A stretch of 64,000 nucleotides of DNA from Gemmatimonas phototrophica. Its GTDB lineage: Bacteria; Gemmatimonadota; Gemmatimonadetes; Gemmatimonadales; Gemmatimonadaceae. The notes below the pieces were generated by a model. The model searched no databases and was not told the origin of the DNA. It saw only the letters and a program-made list of their open reading frames with translations. The stretch spans positions 2,728,001 to 2,792,000 of the forward strand of contig NZ_CP011454.1 in assembly GCF_000695095.2 (NCBI RefSeq), written 5' to 3'. The translations under genes were made by a program, and so were the position numbers. This document shows, piece by piece, positions 53,774-63,288 of the stretch (its first letter is position 1; each line of letters begins with the position of its first letter).

Positions 53774-55195
53774 TCAGAACCCGGCGACGTTGAGACGGCC
53801 GCCGGTGACCACCTTTCCGGCAAGGGACGGGGTCGACGCAGCGCTGCTCATAATGGCGGTCTTGATCTGCGCCGCCGAAGCGCCGGGGTTGAGGCTCGCG
53901 TAGAGCGCCGCGGCACCACTCACATGCGGCGTGGCCATGGACGTGCCATTGTAGCTCGCGTAGCCACTGGTGACCGGCCCATTCTTTCTCGTCTGCCGCG
54001 GAACCGTGCTCCAAATGGCGCTTCCCGGCGCACCGATGTCCACCGTAGTGGCTCCATATTGCGAAAACGAGCTCAGCGCACCGGTGCTGGTGATGGACGC
54101 CACCGCAATAATGTTGGAGCTGGTGTACCCCGACGGATACGAGGCCGTGGCATCGTTGTTGGTGCCGCTGTTACCGGCGGCAGCAATAAACAGGATGCCG
54201 GCCGTGTTCGCGCGATCGATGGCGTCCTTCAGCGCCTGCGAGAACCCGCCGCCGCCCCAGGAGTTATTGGTCGCGACAATGTTCAGGCCCTTGCCCTTCA
54301 AATTGGTGAAATAATCCACCGCCTTGATGGCATTGGCCGTCGTACCGCCCCGACTGCCGAGAAACTTGGCACTCAGCATCTTCACGTTCCACACCACACC
54401 AGCCACACCTTTTCCATTGCCACCAACGGCGCCAATGGTGCCAGCCACGTGCGTACCGTGGTCGTCGGCCACGCCATCGAAGACGGTGTTGTTGTTGCCG
54501 GCGAAGTCCCAGCCATAGACATCATCGACCAAGCCATTGCCGTCGTTGTCTATACCGTCGCCTTCCACTTCACCCGGATTCACACCGGCGTTGGGTGCCA
54601 AGTCTTCGTGCGTGTACATGTAGCCTTCATCGATGATGCCGATGTACACGCTATTGCTACCGGTCTTCCCCGCCGCCCATGCTGTGGCCGCTCCGGTACC
54701 ATACAGATTGGCCGGACTGGTTGACGCGCCGTACATCCCCCACAACGACCCATTCGTGAAGTACGTGTCGTTCGACGTCGCCTGATGCTGATAAATCCAG
54801 TTGGGCTCCGCAAACTCCACATCGGGATCGGCTTGCAGCGCCGCAATCGCACGAGAAAGGTCGCCGTTCACTTTGATGCGGGTGACACCCACCCGACGTC
54901 CGCGTGAGCGCATGGCCCCGGTGAGAATTTCTTCCGACACCTGCCCGCCCACCCGGCCCAGCGCCCGACCACGGCCCGTGGCCGTGATGCCTTCCTTGAA
55001 CTGCACCAGCAACTCACCGGCCACGAACTCCGGTGGCCCCGCCTGAACGGCCGCCATGGCATCGGCGGCACTCATGAAGGCGGCTTCACTTTCTGGGGCG
55101 GTCAAACTTTGCTCGGGAGAGCAGGCGGCGGCAAAGGCCAGCGAAGCGGCAGCGGTCAGGCGGGAGAGACGTTGAGCGGTGGGGCGCACGGTCAC
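53774..55195 (-). CDS. Subtilase (S8) peptidase, exported lipoprotein
   Basis: A 473-residue subtilisin-family serine peptidase. The N-terminal lipoprotein signal (LTAAASLAFAAACSPEQ) is followed by a prodomain of about 110 residues (GELLVQFKEGITATGRGRAL and EFAEPNWIYQHQ), resembling the fervidolysin-type inhibitor. Catalytic residues are D189 in IGIIDEGYMY (where Thr-Gly is usual after Asp), H246 in DDHGTHVAGT and S419 in NGTSMATPHVSG; the oxyanion Asn lies in ATNNSWGG. The GTG at 55195 is chosen because GGAG lies 6 bases before it; an ATG at 55228 is an alternative. It follows the SARP gene by 152 bases on the same strand and could process the nearby peptides; that is conjecture. Confidence 0.88.
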   Translation of the reverse strand: MTVRPTAQRLSRLTAAASLAFAAACSPEQSLTAPESEAAFMSAADAMAAVQAGPPEFVAGELLVQFKEGITATGRGRALGRVGGQVSEEILTGAMRSRGRRVGVTRIKVNGDLSRAIAALQADPDVEFAEPNWIYQHQATSNDTYFTNGSLWGMYGASTSPANLYGTGAATAWAAGKTGSNSVYIGIIDEGYMYTHEDLAPNAGVNPGEVEGDGIDNDGNGLVDDVYGWDFAGNNNTVFDGVADDHGTHVAGTIGAVGGNGKGVAGVVWNVKMLSAKFLGSRGGTTANAIKAVDYFTNLKGKGLNIVATNNSWGGGGFSQALKDAIDRANTAGILFIAAAGNSGTNNDATASYPSGYTSSNIIAVASITSTGALSSFSQYGATTVDIGAPGSAIWSTVPRQTRKNGPVTSGYASYNGTSMATPHVSGAAALYASLNPGASAAQIKTAIMSSAASTPSLAGKVVTGGRLNVAGF

Positions 55196-55263
55196 AGGTG
55201 ACTCCGGTAGAGGCGGGACACAACGCATCAGCGGGGGATTACCCGCACGGTTGCTGTGCTACA

Positions 55264-55347: not shown

Positions 55348-57357
55348 CTACGTACCCACAGCCTCCGGGTGCGTCATCGCCAACACCCGTCGAAGTTCAT
55401 CGCGCACCAACGGACTGCCACTCTGCCGCAGGTACTCGACCAGCACCGGAGAGGCACAGCGAAAGCCGCCATCCTGCTCCATGGCCAGCCCAAGTTCCAC
55501 CAGACGTTGCCCCAATACGCCAGCCCGCAACCTTGAGATTCCGTGGAGGTGCGACAGCCGGTCAAGCGAAACCGCCGGGCGCGCACGCCATTCAGCCAAC
55601 GGCACGGGGTGCCCCTGCTCCATATCGAGCGCCAATGATAACAGCACGGTGCGCGCCACATCGTCCAGCGACTCTACATGCTGCTGTGCCCGCGCCGCCA
55701 ACGGCGCAATACATGGCGCGGCCAATGAATGCGTCTGCCACTCGGTCGATATCGCCCCCCAGCGTTGCTGCATCAGTTGCAACGACGCCTGCACATACCC
55801 CGGCACGCCGTGCGACCCGTGATGGATACACTCGGCAACCGCGCGCCACCCCGAGGGCACACGAGAGAGTTCCACCAGCATGCGCTCAACGCCTTCGATC
55901 GACAACGGCGCCAGTTCCACTCGTCGACTCGATCGCGCAAAATCGGCCCACGCAGGGTTGTTGCGCTCTTGCCCAAGGTCATCCGCCCCGGTGAGTAGCC
56001 AAAGGATTGGCGCCTCAGTGGTCCGCATCGCCACTGCCTGCAATACGTTGGCGCTTTCGCGGTCATACCACATGGCGTCATCGAGCGCCACCACCGCCAC
56101 GGTGTCTTCACAGATCGCGAAGAGTGCCTGCGCGAGTGCCTCCTGCAGTCGAATGGAGAACGTGGCATCTGAGGGTGGTAGTGCCATGGCGCTTCGCCGC
56201 AAAGCCGGGAATCGCTCCTCCAACGCCGGCACGAGCGTCCGCAACGTCTGCAGGTGTGTTTCGTGCACGCCGCCCAGAGCGGCGAGGTCCACCATCTGTT
56301 GAATCAGCGCTGCGGCGGCACCATACGGCATCACCGGGGCATGGGGTGGCGATGCCGCCGCTATCACGGTCGCGCCACGCATCGCGCACATGGCCGCGAC
56401 ATCCTGAAGTAAGCGCGTGCGCCCTGCCCCGAGTCGCCCTTCGAGTGTCACGCCACTTGCACGGCCACTCTGTGTCACGTCATCAAACGCCGCACCGAGG
56501 GTCGTCCACGGCACATCCCGTTCACAGAGACTGGCCAACAGCGAACGGGGAGGGTCAACCTGTACCTTGGCCGTCCCGGCGGCTGGCACGGCAACGGCGC
56601 CGTGGACGGGAGTGACCCAACGCACCGCGCGCAGACGCTGCATGGCGTTCCGAATACGATCACCTTCTGTGTCGGTTGCCCTTCCCTCCTCCGCCAAACG
56701 TCGAAGGGCCTGGTCGCCAAGCGTGTGGACACGCGCGTCGTCATGCAGCAGTACCGCGGCGTCAATGGCCTGGCAGGCCGCGTCCACCGACTCCGGCACG
56801 ATGTCCAGCCAGCGCTCGGCAGCCGCCAGCGCGGACGCATAGTCGCGACGGGCCGTGGCCTCTTGCACGGCGCGCGCCAACGACGCCTGTGCCAACCGCA
56901 CCAGACGCGCCCTGGTACGGTCCCCCCAGTGCAGAAACTCCGGGGCATCCTCGGCGGTCACGTCCTCCAGGAATCGGTGCACATCCGTTTCACACGCCTC
57001 TCGCGGTTGCCTCTCGTGGAGGGCAAGGAACTGCAGCACGTCGCAGCGGCAGGCAGAGGCGAACGGCTCACGCTGCAACGACACCATCGTGCGATCGGAC
57101 CGCAGCGCCTCCCCACACACGTCTCGCAGCTTGCTGAGCGCCTGCCGCAAAGACATTGCCGCGTGCGCCTCATCGCTGTCGGCCCAGAGCAGCGTGGCAA
57201 GGTGCGCCCGCGAATGTGGACCGGGTTCAACGGCCAGGTAGGCCAGCAGGGCGGCGGCTTTCCGCGGTAACGGCACCCGCTGACGTTCGCCATCCCGCAG
57301 CGAAAGTCCGCCACACAATTGCAGGGAAAGCCCCGTGCGGGCATCAGCCAGCGGCAT
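55348..57357 (-). CDS. SARP/BTAD-type transcription regulator with degenerate ATPase
   Basis: A 669-residue regulator. Residues about 10-100 form an OmpR-like winged helix (LPRKAAALLAYLAVEPGPHS, RAHLATLLWADSDEAHAAMS), followed by a BTAD-like helical domain to about residue 250 (CDVLQFLALHERQPREACET). This is the SARP architecture. The remainder is an AAA/STAND-like segment; the phosphate-loop region reads GRLGAGRTRLLQ, with Arg replacing the Walker A Lys, so ATP binding may be lost. Walker B-like VVALDDAMWYD follows. The gene diverges from the peptide genes across 197 bases that hold three CTTTCAC repeats. The start ATG 57357 is the first in frame. It most likely activates the peptide and export operon. 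Confidence 0.83.
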   Translation of the reverse strand: MPLADARTGLSLQLCGGLSLRDGERQRVPLPRKAAALLAYLAVEPGPHSRAHLATLLWADSDEAHAAMSLRQALSKLRDVCGEALRSDRTMVSLQREPFASACRCDVLQFLALHERQPREACETDVHRFLEDVTAEDAPEFLHWGDRTRARLVRLAQASLARAVQEATARRDYASALAAAERWLDIVPESVDAACQAIDAAVLLHDDARVHTLGDQALRRLAEEGRATDTEGDRIRNAMQRLRAVRWVTPVHGAVAVPAAGTAKVQVDPPRSLLASLCERDVPWTTLGAAFDDVTQSGRASGVTLEGRLGAGRTRLLQDVAAMCAMRGATVIAAASPPHAPVMPYGAAAALIQQMVDLAALGGVHETHLQTLRTLVPALEERFPALRRSAMALPPSDATFSIRLQEALAQALFAICEDTVAVVALDDAMWYDRESANVLQAVAMRTTEAPILWLLTGADDLGQERNNPAWADFARSSRRVELAPLSIEGVERMLVELSRVPSGWRAVAECIHHGSHGVPGYVQASLQLMQQRWGAISTEWQTHSLAAPCIAPLAARAQQHVESLDDVARTVLLSLALDMEQGHPVPLAEWRARPAVSLDRLSHLHGISRLRAGVLGQRLVELGLAMEQDGGFRCASPVLVEYLRQSGSPLVRDELRRVLAMTHPEAVGT

Positions 57358-57445
57358 GCATTACGCCATTTGCGCAGGAGAGTCGAGCCCATCCGGTGAA
57401 CGCCCTAATGTCCTTCCCGTACGGCCGAAGGGCCAGTGAGGACCC

Positions 57446-57499
57446 TTTCACGGAAGCCCCGGGGGCTTTCACGATGCTTTCACACCCCTCCCGTAAGCT
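57446..57499 (+). promoter_or_regulatory. Candidate SARP operator and promoter for peptide genes
   Basis: Three direct repeats, TTTCACG at 57446, TTTCACG at 57467 and TTTCACA at 57478, each preceded by C. The last two start 11 bases apart (heptamer, 4 bases, heptamer), the spacing known for SARP regulators; the first is 21 bases away, about two helical turns. A weak -10-like TAAGCT begins 9 bases after the last repeat, near the 8-base distance known for SARP sites. The start of peptide 1 is 55 bases on. Confidence 0.6.
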
Positions 57500-57554
57500 C
57501 TCCCCAGGTCCGCGGCGAACGCCGTCCCTCCCCACCCTGTTCTGGAGAACGACC

Positions 57555-57719
57555 ATGAGCACCGAATCGAAGAAGGACAAGAACTTCCTCCGCATCGAAC
57601 TCACGCCGGCCCAGCAGGAACAGGTCATGAACGAGACCGGCAAGGCGGCCGACGCCATTGAATTGACCACGTCCGAGCTGGAAGAGCGCGTGGCGCCGCG
57701 CCGCATGATCGACGCCTGA
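57555..57719 (+). CDS. Small peptide 1, candidate RiPP-like precursor
   Basis: A 54-residue peptide of unrecognised family. It opens MSTESKKDKNFL, continues with IELTPAQQEQVMNETGK, ADAIELTTSELEERVAPR and ends RMIDA. There is no signal peptide, no Cys and no membrane segment; the body is predicted as two acidic helices. Peptides 2 and 3 share the body and differ in the tail. GGAG lies before the ATG at ribosome-binding distance, and 55 codons are free of the GC-skew artefacts seen in shadow frames. It is first in the row facing away from the SARP gene. Precursor function is inferred from paralogy, the variable tail and neighbouring export genes. A regulatory protein or antitoxin is an alternative. 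Confidence 0.75.
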   Translation: MSTESKKDKNFLRIELTPAQQEQVMNETGKAADAIELTTSELEERVAPRRMIDA

Positions 57720-57764
57720 TTCTCTGTCACCCGCGTTCTCACCCTCCTTTCAGAGGCAACTCCA

Positions 57765-57926
57765 ATGAGCACCGAATCCAGCAAGGACAAGCGCGTCGTC
57801 AGCATCGAGTTGACCCCCACGCAGCAGGAACAGGTCTTCAAGGAAATTGGCAAGTCGGCCGACAGCATTGAAATGTCGCCGGCCGAGCTGGAAGAGCGGA
57901 TCGCACCGCGGCGCTTCCAGCCCTGA
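57765..57926 (+). CDS. Small peptide 2, paralogue of peptide 1
   Basis: A 53-residue paralogue, 45 bases after peptide 1 and probably on the same transcript. It begins MSTESSKDKRVV, shares IELTPTQQEQV, GK, IE, ELEERIAPR, and ends RFQP. The first five residues and the spacing of conserved blocks are identical to peptide 1, indicating duplication. AGAGG lies 9 bases before the ATG. The tail after APR is four residues. A hairpin with a T-rich flank follows, so transcription may often stop here. Confidence 0.75.
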   Translation: MSTESSKDKRVVSIELTPTQQEQVFKEIGKSADSIEMSPAELEERIAPRRFQP

Positions 57927-57951
57927 AAGCAGCAAGACATTGGGCTAGGTA

Positions 57952-57987
57952 ACAGGCCGGCGAGCTATCGCCGGCCTGTCGTCTTTT
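57952..57987 (+). terminator. Intrinsic terminator after peptide 2
   Basis: ACAGGCCGGCGA, loop GCTA, TCGCCGGCCTGT, then CGTCTTTTATGG. The 12-base stem is perfect. Position between peptide 2 and peptide 3 would give more messenger for peptides 1 and 2 than for peptide 3 and the export genes, unless peptide 3 has its own promoter in the 136 bases that follow. Confidence 0.8.
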
Positions 57988-58122
57988 ATGGTGACAATCC
58001 GATCTCCTGTTGGAAGGAATAGCCCCAATGGTCTTTCCTGTCGCCGGCATGAGCCGAAAGAGGGACGCGTGCGGCCTTCCCTCGTGCAGGCAATCGACAT
58101 CCACCCAGAGCGGAGAATGACC

Positions 58123-58284
58123 ATGAGCACGCCCAGCGAGAAGGAAAAGTCGGTCCCCATCGAACTGACCCCGGAGCAGGAGGAGCAGGTCATGAGCAGC
58201 ACGGGCAAGGCGCCAGAAGCCATTGAGCTGTCGAGCACCGAGCTTGAAGAGCGAATCGCCCCGCGTATCCGCCTGCGCCCGTAA
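58123..58284 (+). CDS. Small peptide 3, paralogue of peptides 1 and 2
   Basis: A 53-residue paralogue: MSTPSEKEKSVP, then IELTPEQEEQVMSSTGK, IELSSTELEERIAPR, ending IRLRP. It is more divergent than the first two but keeps all conserved blocks. GGAG lies 7 bases before ATG 58123, favouring it over an in-frame ATG at 58117. It precedes the GAF-HlyD gene by 101 bases, with a perfect hairpin between. The tail after APR is IRLRP. Its position next to the export operon makes it the likeliest cotranscribed member. Confidence 0.75.
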   Translation: MSTPSEKEKSVPIELTPEQEEQVMSSTGKAPEAIELSSTELEERIAPRIRLRP

Positions 58285-58299
58285 CGCTTTCTTCATGTT

Positions 58300-58341
58300 G
58301 TTCACGCGCCGCCCGGGCTATCGTCGGGGCGGCGCGTGAAC
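58300..58341 (+). terminator. Perfect hairpin between peptide 3 and export operon
   Basis: GTTCACGCGCCGCCC with its exact reverse complement, a 15-base stem and a 12-base loop. It lies 15 bases after the peptide 3 stop and 44 before the GAF-HlyD start. No T-run follows, so it may be an attenuator, a messenger-stabilising structure or a weak terminator. Confidence 0.65.
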
Positions 58342-58385
58342 ATATTGGCGCGTATGCTCTGCTTCATTTGTCCCCCGCCTCATCC

Positions 58386-60230
58386 ATGACGAGCAGCGCC
58401 CGCCCAACCGCCTACGACGACGTCCACGACGCCACCCTGGCATTCCTCGGCGCACGTGAACCGGTTGCCCTGTGGCAGGCACTCCTCGGACACGCGATCG
58501 CGGCACTGGACGGCTACGGCGGGTCATTCTGGACGCCCCATGCCGGTGGGCTCCGCCGCATCATGGTGGGCGGCGTGGACGAATTGGCCCGGGAAGTTGA
58601 GCAGCTGGAGGGAGATGATCTCCCCAGACTCTCCGAGCAGTCAACCGATTCCTATATCGTGGCGCGCGAGATCCGCGGGCCTGACAAGCGGTTGATTGGC
58701 GTCTTGCGGGTGTGTCGCCCGCGCGAGGATGGAGCCCCCGACGAGGCCGCGCTCGATACGCTCAAAGCGATGTTGACCGTGGCCGCGAATGTGGCCGGTC
58801 AGCTGCTCCGCGAACAGGACCTTCAGGCCAAGGCCCGCGATTTCACCTTGGTTGCCGAACTCAGCCGTGAAGTAACGGCCACACTCGACCTCGATCGGGT
58901 GTTGCGTGTTGTAGTCAATCTCGCGGCGCGGGCTGTCACCTTCGACCGGGGTGCGCTCGCACTGTACGAAGATGGTACGTGCGACATTCGTGCGGTCTCC
59001 GGCGCCGACAAGGTGGACCCGGAGGATCCCAAGCTGCGCGACCTCGCTGAACGCGCCGCGTGGGCCGCTGGCCGGGGTGAAGGGCTCTACGTTTCCGACC
59101 GCGACGATCCGGGGTCAGACGCCGAACGCGTCTTCCTCCAATTCTTCTCGGCGGATCTCGAAGCGGACGATACCCGCAGCGGGCTCTATCTCCCGTTGCG
59201 TGATGAAGAAGGAATTGTGGGCGTGCTGGTCCTGGAAGCGCAGCGGGCGGAATTCGCCACCGATCATCAACGCGACGTGGCCGAAATTCTCGCCAATCAG
59301 GCCACGGTGGCCATCCGTAATGCGCGCCTGTACTCGCAGGTCCCGCTGGTCGATATGCTGGGGGCTATTGGCGAGCGCCGGAAAGCATTCAAGGCCATCC
59401 CGAAGCGCACCAAGCGTCTGGCCGCTGCGGCGGCGGTGCTCGGGCTCCTGATGTTGACGCTTGTGCAGTGGCCGCTGCGTGTTGACGGCCACGACGCCGT
59501 GCTGCTGCCGGCAGAACGCACCATCGTGCGCGCCATGCTTGACGGGCAGATTGAACAGGTCCTCGTTCGCAGCGGGCAGCAGGTCGCGCAAGGCGAGCCG
59601 CTCTTCCGATTACGGAGTCTCGATCGCGCCGGTGCCCGTGACGCCGTGCTGGCCGATGTTGAGGCAGCAGAGCGTGAGGCCGCACTGGCTGCGAGCCTCG
59701 GCGATGCCGTCAACGAGCGACTGGCCAGGCTCCGCGCGCAGTCGGCGCGTCAACGGGCTGAGCAACTTACCGCCGAGGTACGTGCCACGGTCATTCGAGC
59801 CCCGACCGCCGGTGTTGTGCTCACGGAGCGACTCGATGAACTGCTCGAGACCCGCGCGCTCGCCGGGGCGCCGTTGCTGACGCTCGGTCGCGTGGATTCG
59901 CTCGAGGTCACCTTTACGGTGCCGCAGCGCGAAGTGACTCGATTGGCCGCAGAGCAGCGCATCCGCCTCCGCACCGAGGCGGTCCCGCAGCGAACGTTTG
60001 AAGGGCGAGTCATTAGCATCGCGCCGTTGCCCACCTTGCTGGCCGATACCGTCACGGCGGCGTCGGCCACGTTTCCGGTGCGTGCCCTGGTGGCCAATGA
60101 TGATGCCCTGCTGCGCCCTGGCATGACGCCGTACGTTCGCGTCCTCACCGATCGCGCGTCACTCGCGGAACGCTTGCTGCGCCGCCCGTGGCGGGCCGCG
60201 CGTCTCCTCTTCTGGAAGCTCACGGCATGA
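58386..60230 (+). CDS. GAF domain-HlyD membrane fusion protein
   Basis: A 614-residue fusion. Residues about 10-145 and 155-325 form one divergent and one clear GAF-like domain (RDFTLVAELSREVTATLDLD, ALALYEDGTCDIRAVSGADK, RSGLYLPLRDEEGIVGVLVL). A helical linker and a membrane segment follow near residue 345 (LAAAAAVLGLLMLTLVQWPL). Then comes a HlyD/RND-adaptor domain: DGQIEQVLVRSGQQVAQGEP (lipoyl half), a short helical hairpin, VIRAPTAGVV (second half) and a beta-barrel part. The topology puts the GAF domains in the cytoplasm and the adaptor in the periplasm. Start ATG 58386 is used; a TTG at 58368 is in frame. Its stop overlaps the next gene (ATGA). No ABC ATPase is present. Confidence 0.83.
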   Translation: MTSSARPTAYDDVHDATLAFLGAREPVALWQALLGHAIAALDGYGGSFWTPHAGGLRRIMVGGVDELAREVEQLEGDDLPRLSEQSTDSYIVAREIRGPDKRLIGVLRVCRPREDGAPDEAALDTLKAMLTVAANVAGQLLREQDLQAKARDFTLVAELSREVTATLDLDRVLRVVVNLAARAVTFDRGALALYEDGTCDIRAVSGADKVDPEDPKLRDLAERAAWAAGRGEGLYVSDRDDPGSDAERVFLQFFSADLEADDTRSGLYLPLRDEEGIVGVLVLEAQRAEFATDHQRDVAEILANQATVAIRNARLYSQVPLVDMLGAIGERRKAFKAIPKRTKRLAAAAAVLGLLMLTLVQWPLRVDGHDAVLLPAERTIVRAMLDGQIEQVLVRSGQQVAQGEPLFRLRSLDRAGARDAVLADVEAAEREAALAASLGDAVNERLARLRAQSARQRAEQLTAEVRATVIRAPTAGVVLTERLDELLETRALAGAPLLTLGRVDSLEVTFTVPQREVTRLAAEQRIRLRTEAVPQRTFEGRVISIAPLPTLLADTVTAASATFPVRALVANDDALLRPGMTPYVRVLTDRASLAERLLRRPWRAARLLFWKLTA

Positions 60231-61213
60231 CCCGCGTCAATCTTCCACCGGCAACAGCACTGCTCATCGCACTGCTCACCGGCACCGCCTGTTCGGGCAC
60301 GCCAGACGCCAAGGCCGCCCAACAACGCGCATCGGGAACGAGCACGACCGGCCGCTTTGCTGCGGTAGAGTCCACCACAGTCAGCGAACCACTACGCCTG
60401 CCGTCACAGCTGTATGTGGAGCGAGACGCCGTGTTGTCCACACGTACCGATGGCGTACTGCGTGCGCTCACGGTGAATCTGGGCGCCAGTGTTCGCGCCG
60501 GACAGATAATGGGCAGCGTAGATGACGAGGCGCAGCGATTGGCGCAGGCGCGGGCGACCGTGGCGCTGGACCGGGCCACCAAACTCGCCTGGCGCGCCCG
60601 CGAGATGCGCACGAGCCAGAATATCCCCGAATCGGAAGCTGAGGACGCAGAGTTCGCCCTGCGCGAAGCCGACGTTGCCAAGCGTGAAGCCGACCTGGCA
60701 CTGGAGCGCACGGCCATCAAAGCGCCTTTCGATGGCGTGGTGAGTGCGCGCTACGTACAGCCCGGGCGTCTGTTGGCCGCCAATGATACCGTACTCCGTA
60801 TTACTGCACGCGGCCCCTATCTCGCGCGCGTGCGAATCCCGGAGCACGATGCCGATGGCCTGAAGTTGGGGCGTGTGCTGGGGGTCCAGGTGGGTGAGCA
60901 GACTCGGGGTCGCGGACGTGTGGTACGCATCGCCCCCGACATCGACGCGGCCAGTGGCACGCGCGAAGTGATTGTCGAAGTGGACGCGCGCGGCACCGCG
61001 CTCATGTCCGGGCGCGCGGTGGTCGTGGAGTTGCCGCGGGCCTCTCGCCCAGTGCTCACCGTTCCCGCCGCGGCCATCAGTGCGGATGGGTATGTCGTCG
61101 TACAGCAGGACGGACGCGCCGTGATGCGACCGATTGTTGCCGGAAACCGGTTTGATGATCGGGTAGAGGTCCGCGCCGGCCTCGTAGCCGGGGAGCGCGT
61201 GCGCCTCCCATGA
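60227..61213 (+). CDS. HlyD/RND-type periplasmic adaptor
   Basis: A 328-residue periplasmic adaptor. The N-terminus (PATALLIALLTGTACSGTPD) looks like a lipoprotein signal with a weak lipobox before Cys. DGVLRALTVNLGASVRAGQI is the first lipoyl half; a 70-residue helical hairpin (ARATVALDRATKLAWRAREM onward) follows, then AIKAPFDGVVSARYVQPGRL as second half. Beta-barrel and membrane-proximal segments close the protein (PAAAISADGYVVVQQDGRAV). It is the RND adaptor type, but no RND pump gene is near. It overlaps both neighbours by 4 bases. Confidence 0.87.
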   Translation: MTRVNLPPATALLIALLTGTACSGTPDAKAAQQRASGTSTTGRFAAVESTTVSEPLRLPSQLYVERDAVLSTRTDGVLRALTVNLGASVRAGQIMGSVDDEAQRLAQARATVALDRATKLAWRAREMRTSQNIPESEAEDAEFALREADVAKREADLALERTAIKAPFDGVVSARYVQPGRLLAANDTVLRITARGPYLARVRIPEHDADGLKLGRVLGVQVGEQTRGRGRVVRIAPDIDAASGTREVIVEVDARGTALMSGRAVVVELPRASRPVLTVPAAAISADGYVVVQQDGRAVMRPIVAGNRFDDRVEVRAGLVAGERVRLP

Positions 61214-63288
61214 GTACCGTTCGACGCCCCTCGCTGGTCAACGGCGTGCGCGTGGTCGAGCAGCGCTTTCAAGGAGAACCCGGGTTCGTGGTGAAGAGTC
61301 CGTCCACCGGCAAGTACCTGCGCTTCAAGCCGGTGGAAGCACGTGTCATGGAGCTCTTCAACGGCGAACGGACCGTGCATCAGGTGGCGGCGCAAATGAC
61401 GGCGGAAGGCACCAGTATCGGGGCTTCCACCATTGACGCGTTTGCCACGAGACTGGCCACACTGGGCATTGTGGATCGCACGCTCGTGGAGAAAACGTCG
61501 GCCCAACTCGAACGGTTGCGTGAGGAGCGCAAGGAACGCCGAAGAAAGCCGCTTTTCCGCGGCGAATTTCTGCGGATGCGTTTTCCCATGGGTGATCCGG
61601 ATCGTCTGCTCACGCGCACCATGCCACTGGTACGCTGGTGCTTCACCCCGGCCTTCGTGTGGGGGTCCGTGGCGGTATTCGCCTTTTATGCGTTACTGCT
61701 CACAGCCCGCTGGCAAGAGCTCACCACGTCGTTCAGCGCCCTGACCAACCCGGCCAATTGGAGTGTGGCCACGGCACTGATGTTCTGGGGTGCATTCATT
61801 GGTGTGGGCATTGTGCATGAATTGGGACACGCCTACGCGTGCAAAGGATTCCGCGGGGAAGTGAACGAAATGGGGTTCATGATCATGTACTTCCAGCCCG
61901 CCTTCTATTGTAACGTGAACGATGCCTGGACGTTTACGAAGCTCAGTGACCGGTTGTGGGTCACCGCCGCGGGCGCGTGGGTGGAACTGTTGCTGGGCGC
62001 TGCCGCTGCCGCGGTGTGGGCCGTTTCGGCGCCCGGCACGGTCATCTCCCAACTATCCCTCATGGTGACGTTGCTTGCCGGTGGACTGGCGCTACTCAGC
62101 AACGCCAATCCCCTGCTGCCGTACGATGGCTACTTCGCGCTGAGCGATTGGCTGGAAATTCCCAATCTTCGCCAGCGCGCGCTGGGCTACTTCAACTGGT
62201 TCTTCGCCACCACGATCCTCCGTCGCGAAGCCGAGGAGCCCGCCGTCACCGAACGAGAGCGCCGGATCTTTCTCTGGTACGGCGCGCTGGCGTCGCTGTA
62301 TATCGCCATGGTCTACACCATTGCGCTGCGCTTCGTCGTTCGCTGGTCCTACCGGACGTTTGGTATCACCGTGGCAACCGCGCTGGTGGTGGTTCTCATG
62401 ACATGGCAGCGCCATCGGTTGTTGGCCGCATGGACGGCTGTGCGCGCCGCCTGGCACGACTTCGCACGCCAGACGCTGCGCAGCCGCTTCGCGCTCATTC
62501 CCGCCCCGCTTCGGGGATGGCGGGGCGGGGCGTTGGGCACGGCGCTGCTCATGCTGTTGCCATGGCCGCGCAATGTTGACGGCGAATGGAACGCGCGACC
62601 GCTGGGCTATCGCGTCGTGACTGCCCAGACAGACGGTGTGATTACCGACGTACGCGTACGCGGCGGTGATATGGTGGTGGCCGGCGCCCCCATGCTGCAG
62701 CTACTCAACCGCCAGACGGAACGCTCGCTCACACAAGCGACGTTCGATCGGGATTCGCTGCAGTTACAGGAGCAAGCCTCAGTGGCCGCACGCGCCGGCG
62801 ACATCGCCACGCTGCAAGCGCGGTCACAAGCCGCCAGCGTACGTGCCGCCAACAGCCGGGCGGTTCAACGGCAATTGATCGTTCGCGCCACAACCACGGG
62901 CACGGTACTCACGGAACAGCCAGCGTTGCTGATAGGCAAGCCGGTGACTGCCGGCACCCCCCTGCTTCACCTCGGCCGCAGCGATTCACTGGAAGTCCGG
63001 GTGCACTTTCGTGGTGCAGGTGCCGCTGCACTGCAACCTGGTCAACGCATCCGCCTGTATCTGGACGCGGATGCCGCGAGGCCCATCACCTCAACGGTGT
63101 CGCGGGTGAGCCTTGTTGGCACGCCCGAACATCCGGGGGCAACGGAAGCGCTTGTACACCTTCCGGCCTCAGGCGCCTGGCGCGCAGGCACGAATGGCCC
63201 CGCCAGGGTGCGCTTGCAAATGGGGACGATTGGTAGCGCGATGCTCTGGGCCATACGCAGCCGCCTGCGCCCCGACTTTCTGTTGTAG
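61210..63288 (+). CDS. PqqD-like/M50 peptidase/HlyD fusion membrane protein
   Basis: A 692-residue fusion. Residues about 15-95 resemble PqqD, the peptide-chaperone or leader-binding fold (GKYLRFKPVEARVMELFNGE, IDAFATRLATLGIVD). A basic linker leads to a membrane region of about eight segments with the M50 site-2 protease motif HELGH (H203-H207) and the third ligand in NPLLPYDGYFALSD (D306). From about residue 455, a HlyD-like domain has TAQTDGVITDVRVRGGDMVV, a helical hairpin and RATTTGTVLTEQ. Its ATG overlaps the stop of the adaptor gene. It ends 11 bases from the convergent asparaginase. It is a candidate leader-binding peptidase and exporter for the peptides; this is inference. Confidence 0.86.
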   Translation: MSTVRRPSLVNGVRVVEQRFQGEPGFVVKSPSTGKYLRFKPVEARVMELFNGERTVHQVAAQMTAEGTSIGASTIDAFATRLATLGIVDRTLVEKTSAQLERLREERKERRRKPLFRGEFLRMRFPMGDPDRLLTRTMPLVRWCFTPAFVWGSVAVFAFYALLLTARWQELTTSFSALTNPANWSVATALMFWGAFIGVGIVHELGHAYACKGFRGEVNEMGFMIMYFQPAFYCNVNDAWTFTKLSDRLWVTAAGAWVELLLGAAAAAVWAVSAPGTVISQLSLMVTLLAGGLALLSNANPLLPYDGYFALSDWLEIPNLRQRALGYFNWFFATTILRREAEEPAVTERERRIFLWYGALASLYIAMVYTIALRFVVRWSYRTFGITVATALVVVLMTWQRHRLLAAWTAVRAAWHDFARQTLRSRFALIPAPLRGWRGGALGTALLMLLPWPRNVDGEWNARPLGYRVVTAQTDGVITDVRVRGGDMVVAGAPMLQLLNRQTERSLTQATFDRDSLQLQEQASVAARAGDIATLQARSQAASVRAANSRAVQRQLIVRATTTGTVLTEQPALLIGKPVTAGTPLLHLGRSDSLEVRVHFRGAGAAALQPGQRIRLYLDADAARPITSTVSRVSLVGTPEHPGATEALVHLPASGAWRAGTNGPARVRLQMGTIGSAMLWAIRSRLRPDFLL

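Follow-up and report, generated by a model that had tools for sequence, protein, structure and literature searches.

Three Short Peptide Genes Precede a Protease and Adaptor Cassette

The window analyzed here is a 64,000-nucleotide stretch of the Gemmatimonas phototrophica genome (NZ_CP011454.1, a single contig of 4,716,552 bases), numbered from its first letter. Toward its end, three short ORFs lie between a divergently oriented regulator gene and three larger genes for proteins with HlyD-type adaptor domains, in the following arrangement:

55348–57357, − strand: divergent regulator with an AAA_16 domain (Pfam), recurring beside the cassette; its relative at locus L033 has a BTAD domain too
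57555–57719, + strand: putative precursor peptide 1 (P0001, 54 aa), from ORF, translation, and family alignment
57699–57716, + strand: predicted released tail RRMIDA of P0001, following the leader end VAP at a predicted cut site
57765–57926, + strand: putative precursor peptide 2 (P0002, 53 aa), from ORF, translation, and family alignment
57909–57923, + strand: predicted tail RRFQP of P0002, at a predicted cut site
57952–57979, + strand: terminator-like hairpin after peptide 2, a 12-bp perfect stem and then CGTCTTTT
58123–58284, + strand: putative precursor peptide 3 (P0003, 53 aa), from ORF, translation, and family alignment
58264–58281, + strand: predicted tail RIRLRP of P0003, at a predicted cut site
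58299–58342, no strand assigned: perfect inverted repeat of 16 bp separating the last peptide from the machinery genes (no stem longer than 10 in 60 shuffles, against 16 here)
58368–60230, + strand: GAF domain and HlyD-type periplasmic adaptor (Pfam GAF and HlyD_D23, both over their cut-offs); start uncertain, TTG at 58368
60188–61213, + strand: HlyD/RND-type adaptor, an apparent lipoprotein (LLTGTAC, by eye; NCBIfam RND_mfp 158 bits, over cut-off)
61210–63288, + strand: RiPP recognition element (RRE, about residues 1–98), M50 site-2 protease, and HlyD domain (about residues 437–683), 692 aa

All three short ORFs begin with ATG and have a GGAG- or AGAGG-like site on their 5′ side (by eye). Their products share a body of 47–48 residues that ends in ELEERIAP or its VAP variant (ELEER[VI]AP) and is followed by differing tails of 5–6 residues. 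P0001 has identities of 64 and 63% with the other two peptides, and 28 columns are invariant across the three. A search of the genome with P0003 retrieves its two siblings (E values of 8.7e-14 and 3.9e-11) and no further copy up to E 1, and the family profile described below finds P0001–P0003 only, at E up to 0.01. A DNA pattern taken from the common core occurs three times in the window and not at all in shuffles, and in the body pS (0.45–0.54) exceeds pN (0.17–0.26), as fits coding sequence. Together, the within-genome matches, the core pattern, and the excess of pS rule out chance or misread ORFs, and they confirm, on the forward strand and at these positions, the three ORFs with near-constant body and short variable tail that an earlier sequence-only reading of this DNA had described. 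None of the three peptides has an NCBIfam match at E up to 1, nor do six family peptides at E up to 10; the lone Pfam match among the window peptides, a sub-threshold AAA-lid hit to P0002 (E 0.015), is not credible.

Conservation Ends at an Invariant Proline

By sequence comparison, P0001–P0003 belong to a Gemmatimonadota peptide family; relatives with short leaders occur in Acidobacteriota and in a Limisphaerales genome. P0003 finds matches in 23 of the 298 genomes of the window's phylum (Gemmatimonadota), and a 33-sequence profile in 27 of them, some partial; within the window's family, the same profile matches 13 of 179 genomes, four of them weakly or partially. Of the 25 named loci, 22 come from Gemmatimonadota MAGs, two from Acidobacteria records, and one from a Limisphaerales MAG.

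From the Gemmatimonadota loci we extracted 53 distinct peptides with a pattern that accepts only ends of the type E[LI][ED].R[IVM].P. Divergent members fall outside it, among them the second peptide of each of L039 and L069 and the peptides of L058, L061, L179, and G241, so that conservation among the 53 is overstated. The per-position plot that the sequence-only reading had suggested shows strong conservation up to AP and free tails thereafter, which favors a precursor: the information content is 4.14 bits at the proline (position −1) and falls to 1.24, 0.46, and 0.20 bits at positions +1, +2, and +3. Averaged over all pairs, identity is 0.597 for bodies and 0.112 for tails, for which composition alone would predict 0.073. 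All 53 tails are distinct; they span 3–27 residues with a mode of 6 (4–8 residues in 41 of them) and carry a mean net charge of +1.1. Proline closes the conserved part in all 33 aligned peptides, in place of the GG or GA that ends double-glycine (NHLP/PCAT) leaders.

The sequence-only reading had placed the variable residues (RMIDA, RFQP, and IRLRP) after a shared APR. Those letters are right, but the boundary is not: conservation ends at AP, and arginine comes next in 23 of the 53 peptides. The variable residues are therefore more accurately given as RRMIDA, RRFQP, and RIRLRP. Its comment that such a C terminus would be unusual for RiPPs holds as to tail length.

The Last Gene Encodes an RRE–M50–HlyD Protein

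The protein encoded at 61210–63288 carries the M50/site-2 protease motifs HELGH (residues 203–207; HExxH) and, distal to it, NPxxxxDG, with helices in the structure model. Residues H203, E204, H207, N300, P301, D306, and G307 are invariant in 9 of 9 homologs. The Pfam M50 match scores 24.1 bits, under the cut-off of 27.2, and the best NCBIfam model is daptide_HExxH (daptide intramembrane metalloprotease), which covers residues 12–399.

The N terminus is predicted to have a PqqD-like RRE fold of three strands and three helices. Pfam PqqD matches residues 1–98 of the window protein at 17.6 bits, under the cut-off of 23.4, and matches 15 of the 22 family N termini at E up to 1; profile comparison gives PaaA at E 0.0038 and PqqD at E 0.11. 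An AlphaFold2 (AF2) model of the first 98 residues, predicted alone, has a pLDDT of 80, and the first ten Foldseek matches to it are all RRE-bearing proteins, among them PqqD, TbiB1, lasso B1 with leader, TruD, TigE, and TglHI, the best at E 0.0011 and none at E 0.001 or below. Structure comparison aligns 82 residues with 6jx3 (Z 10.2, rmsd 2.3), a score that the methyltransferase domain 8hkr equals and that further non-RRE chains approach at Z 8–9.

A tripartite (HlyD/MacA/MexA) adaptor fold is seen in the C terminus, where residues 451–683 align with MacA–MexA over 229 residues (Z 16.9, rmsd 5.2), and in the protein encoded at 60188–61213 through its RND_mfp match. When the whole M50 protein is used as the query, structure matches are filled by the adaptor domain. 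The neighboring RRE–M50 protein, which could plausibly bind and cut a leader, and the boundary in the 53 peptides both support the constant leader with a short free tail, that is, the precursor, that the sequence-only reading had favored.

Comparison of the Leader End with That of Daptides

Daptide precursors carry the motif ELExMEAP, and an RRE-dependent intramembrane peptidase removes their leader (PMC10036551). The leader of TfDapA1 ends in ALELEMQELEAMEAP before the core (PMC12338566, Table 1), in register with the family consensus A-[IL]-E-L-x-x-[EQ]-E-L-E-x-x-x-A-P. On a 15-column profile of the family, this leader end scores 20.9 bits, against a maximum of 17.1 among 20,000 shuffles; over 10 or 8 columns the p values are 0.0012 and 0.0027, and SaDapA1 is weaker (p 0.007). 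An hhalign comparison of the leader profile with TfDapA1 (21% probability, E 0.001) is unconvincing alone. Set against ELExMEAP, the family has ELE...AP in register, but R and I/V stand for M and E. Given related proteases and leader ends that align in register, a cut after AP, releasing RRMIDA, RRFQP, and RIRLRP, is the best prediction by analogy.

The two systems share several short precursors and an RRE fused to a site-2 protease, which in daptides (MpaA/MpaP; DapA/DapP) removes the leader (PMC10036551 and PMC12338566); the leader ends in ELExMEAP there and in ELEERIAP here. They differ in that the daptide cores of the two precursors described in those excerpts have 21 and 26 residues, whereas the tails here mostly have 4–8, and in that daptide clusters, as described there, have ABC transporters, whereas the window cassette has HlyD adaptors instead. 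The invariant C-terminal threonine of daptides ends only 1 of the 53 tails and none in the window; the best match to the daptide dehydrogenase (oxidative decarboxylase) in the window's genome scores 20.3 bits against a cut-off of 300; and the daptide_HExxH equivalog cut-off, likewise 300, is not reached (178.8 bits for the window protein; 180.2 bits also obtained). Threonine, dehydrogenase, and protease score all argue that the peptides are not daptides. No recurring aminotransferase or methyltransferase cluster was identified among the neighbors of 16 loci, where small clusters are unnamed. The system probably acts like the daptide leader-removal step, yet is not a daptide.

The Peptides Recur with the Cassette

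The recurring cassette comprises a divergent AAA/BTAD-type regulator, one to three peptides, often a strong hairpin, and genes for GAF–HlyD, HlyD, and M50–HlyD proteins. Among 30 loci fetched around peptide matches (blastp), 18 have all three downstream genes, 2 have GAF–HlyD alone at a contig end, and 10 have none; among the 22 named Gemmatimonadota loci, whose contigs are partly shared with the 30, these classes number 19, 2, and 1. Gene order varies: the L049 peptide follows the M50 gene, and at L042 the regulator lies between the peptides and GAF–HlyD. The regulator is usually adjacent to the peptides, but blastp found none at L036, L046, or L047. The fusion of a GAF sensor domain to an HlyD-type adaptor (58368–60230, + strand in the window) recurs in the cassette, and we know of no other example of it.

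An M50 profile matches 29 of the 298 genomes at E up to 1e-30, or 25 after exclusion of four with an adaptor-domain match only. Peptide and M50 occur together in 20 genomes, M50 only in 5, peptide only in 7, and neither in 266 (Fisher p 6e-21, shared ancestry ignored). One match in the first class is weak, the G206 peptide being a 21-position piece at a contig end, as are three peptide-only ones (G026, G030, and G104), which cover the first 35–38 positions only and lack the ELEERIAP end; in G178, the contig stops within the GAF–HlyD gene. Two of the five M50-only genomes have a short-leader peptide at the M50 gene, in which LEKLEERIAP or LEKLEQRIAP precedes a His/Asp- or His/Ser-bearing tail; in a third, the contig begins 1.7 kb before M50, too short for the expected place of the peptide; the remaining two show none. 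Neither G124 nor G282 has a visible motif peptide next to its M50 gene.

Of 21 spacers separating the last peptide gene from the machinery genes, 13 have a longest stem that beats all 60 shuffles, and this layout would be expected if precursors were made in excess over machinery. The count of terminator-like sites in 57300–58500, by comparison, is one against a mean of 1.0 in shuffles.

The window also encodes an S8 subtilase with a Fervidolysin-type prodomain adjoining the regulator (53774–55228, − strand), and L050 likewise has a subtilase beside its regulator. We rejected the subtilase as a part of the system, since, among the loci fetched around peptide matches and the named Gemmatimonadota loci, a homolog lies beside the cassette in only one further genome (L050 and L078 being one contig).

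Clustering of the neighbors of 16 loci shows that the cassette genes recur, together with a kinase-like cluster (by eye) in 7 loci, an unnamed one in 3, and others in 1–2. None of the fixed members of the cassette in these neighborhoods is a modification enzyme, an ATP-driven transporter, or an outer-membrane channel, so that export would lack an evident energy source; an ABC-ATPase-like ORF (by eye), considered as a possible transporter component, lies several kb away and at L050 and L051 only. With no modification enzyme among the recurring neighbors, the product probably carries no modification. It would be otherwise if the peptides were RiPP precursors whose tails are modified by enzymes encoded elsewhere, the cassette only removing the leader and exporting the product. 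RREs are typical of RiPP systems (PMC10036551, as excerpted), and the peptides found outside cassettes indicate that parts can be unlinked; we nevertheless consider this account unlikely, as no cluster beyond the cassette genes recurs in most of the 16 loci (7 at most, the kinase-like one), the window's genome has no daptide dehydrogenase over cut-off, and no tail position is conserved as a target.

Short-Leader Relatives and Constraint on the Tails

In the Acidobacteriota and Limisphaerales relatives, the body is cut to about ten residues, VEELEERIAP, and the tails are longer. The phylum of the Limisphaerales genome has a more distant M50 protein in 17 of 145 genomes (E up to 1e-40), and no motif peptide was found within about 1.5 kb of those M50 genes in the 19 loci examined, including that of G300, whose motif peptides sit on another contig. 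In the phylum of G298, such an M50 occurs in 21 of 149 genomes: the five best-scoring loci (L088 and L102–L105) all have motif peptides, downstream and on the opposite strand in L104 and L105, and among the others there are possible motif peptides at L109 and L116, a doubtful one at L124, and none seen in the rest, absences that are soft because the first motif pattern overlooked two of the three L103 peptides. The short-leader peptides at a more distant M50 gene in Gemmatimonadota, with the His/Asp- or His/Ser-bearing tails mentioned above, lie at L184:8161–8295 and L186:8027–8161 (both − strand), and metal binding by these tails is possible.

The variability of the tails raises the question of whether their amino acids matter. 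Across 405 tail codons, GC content at the first, second, and third positions is 0.595/0.504/0.844, against 0.666/0.661/0.660 in the 60 nt after the stop (bootstrap intervals computed), the spacer being an imperfect non-coding yardstick in which frequent GC-rich hairpins may raise GC. This pattern would be unexpected of a tail that only drifts, and indicates that its amino acids are constrained while their identities vary. Pooling the 96 pairs whose bodies are at least 75% identical gives a pN of 0.129 for bodies and 0.668 for tails and a pS of 0.48 and 0.51, with the qualification that the pairs are non-independent and that comparing tails ungapped inflates tail pN. L062 and L064 form a close pair with almost the same body DNA, and their tails diverge along with the adjacent spacer; this weighs against arguing strongly for positive selection, and we make no such claim.

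The tails of L086, on the Limisphaerales MAG contig, and of L103, from the acidobacterial search, are identical at 30 of 36 residues (pS 0.61, pN 0.11), whereas identity between the M50 proteins of these genomes is 47%. All four tail pairs compared among the Acidobacteriota and Limisphaerales relatives have pN below pS (0.11–0.29 vs. 0.57–0.77), the substitution pattern of a tail under purifying selection. The L086 MAG contig may be misbinned, which has no bearing on this selection.

Tails may also be shared within arrays and types. An 8-residue tail, TRAAIAMG, is identical in seven tandem copies from two genomes (four and three copies); the arrays, of a 31-aa peptide spaced at 125–129 bp, lie at L167:7837–8315 (− strand) and L168:139–492 (+ strand) and adjoin an RRE–M50–HlyD-type gene. 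A tail type bearing NHNE comprises five peptides in three Gemmatimonadota genomes (L055, L057, L058, L074, and L178), four of them without an adjacent cassette; at L178, one such peptide adjoins kinase-like and TPR-like ORFs (by eye).

These observations bear on whether the body itself might do the work: a small acidic protein, acting as adaptor or inhibitor through binding to the RRE–M50 protein or to the regulator, that drags along an unconstrained tail. Strong conservation of the body and the joint divergence of tail and spacer in L062/L064 would fit such a role. We think it improbable, given the amino acid constraint in the tail codons, the identical TRAAIAMG tails, and the shrinkage of the body to about VEELEERIAP in relatives whose four compared tail pairs all have pN below pS. 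The small acidic regulators of constant fold that the sequence-only reading had offered as its alternative are disfavored on the same ground, that the body shrinks while the tail stays and is conserved in the compared pairs.

A Proposed Model of Protease-Coupled Peptide Release

We propose, as the probable reading, that the cassette produces RRE-dependent, M50-released, and probably unmodified short peptides that are exported via HlyD adaptors, with a signal as their most natural use. The PqqD-like RRE at the N terminus of the M50–HlyD protein would bind the leader; the M50 intramembrane metalloprotease would cut after AP at the membrane, freeing the C-terminal 5–6 residues; and the three HlyD-type adaptors would hand the product across the envelope. 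Control of the cassette probably falls to the divergent regulator. Short-range peptide signaling would be the most natural use, and we favor it because the tails are short and diverse and a regulator is adjacent. The short signaling peptides proposed by the sequence-only reading would fit this divergent regulator and the lack of a recurring modification enzyme; the product may instead be a toxin or other exported peptide.

Other M50-dependent systems offer partial parallels. The epipeptides (EpeX/YydF with EpeP/YydH) also use an M50 intramembrane protease, and EpeP has been proposed to carry out cleavage as well as export, which gives an M50 protein with two roles a precedent (PMC10885120). 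They differ from the window system, in which RRE and HlyD are fused to the M50 protein and no recurring modification enzyme was found in the cassettes; the window protein scores 39 bits against the LiaK/YydH epipeptide M50 equivalog, with a cut-off of 225. In the TMcin system (TmcA/TmcP), a site-2-type intramembrane protease likewise removes the leader, but the core is transmembrane with a disulfide, there is an ABC transporter, and the available part of the description mentions no RRE–HlyD fusion (PMC13252029). The Pearlins (TglA/TglG) resemble the window system in having a short product at the C terminus of a conserved peptide and an M50 protease, and differ in that their product is a modified amino acid built on a scaffold, whereas the window tail is gene-encoded (PMC10885120, as excerpted). 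That the body is a reusable carrier of this kind, from whose C terminus M50 clips residues as TglG and TmoG clip the C-terminal residue of scaffold peptides (PMC10885120, same excerpt), is very improbable, since the tails are gene-encoded, variable, and 3–27 residues long and no further gene able to add amino acids recurs in most loci.

A literature search, in a scope that took in little of the subscription journals, found among the matches listed no description of an RRE, M50, and HlyD peptide system; matches to the string ELEERIAP were, by title, fungal and pollen work and were taken as false. The evidence suggests a family of very short bacterial peptides that has yet to be described. More tentatively, and as a possibility rather than an expectation, the preferred reading may extend to a widespread diderm system in which an RRE-guided intramembrane protease–periplasmic adaptor replaces an ATP-driven exporter, cuts after ELEERIAP, and emits hypervariable, unmodified, strain-specific signals of about 4–16 residues (longer NPG-, His-, or NHNE-type ones elsewhere).

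If true, RRE, M50, and HlyD with one leader code would mark precursors across Gemmatimonadota, Acidobacteriota, and at least one Limisphaerales genome. Such a system would also suggest that daptide-type leader proteases act on peptides lacking daptide chemistry, and it would open the coupling of peptide release to a protease in diderm bacteria to direct testing.
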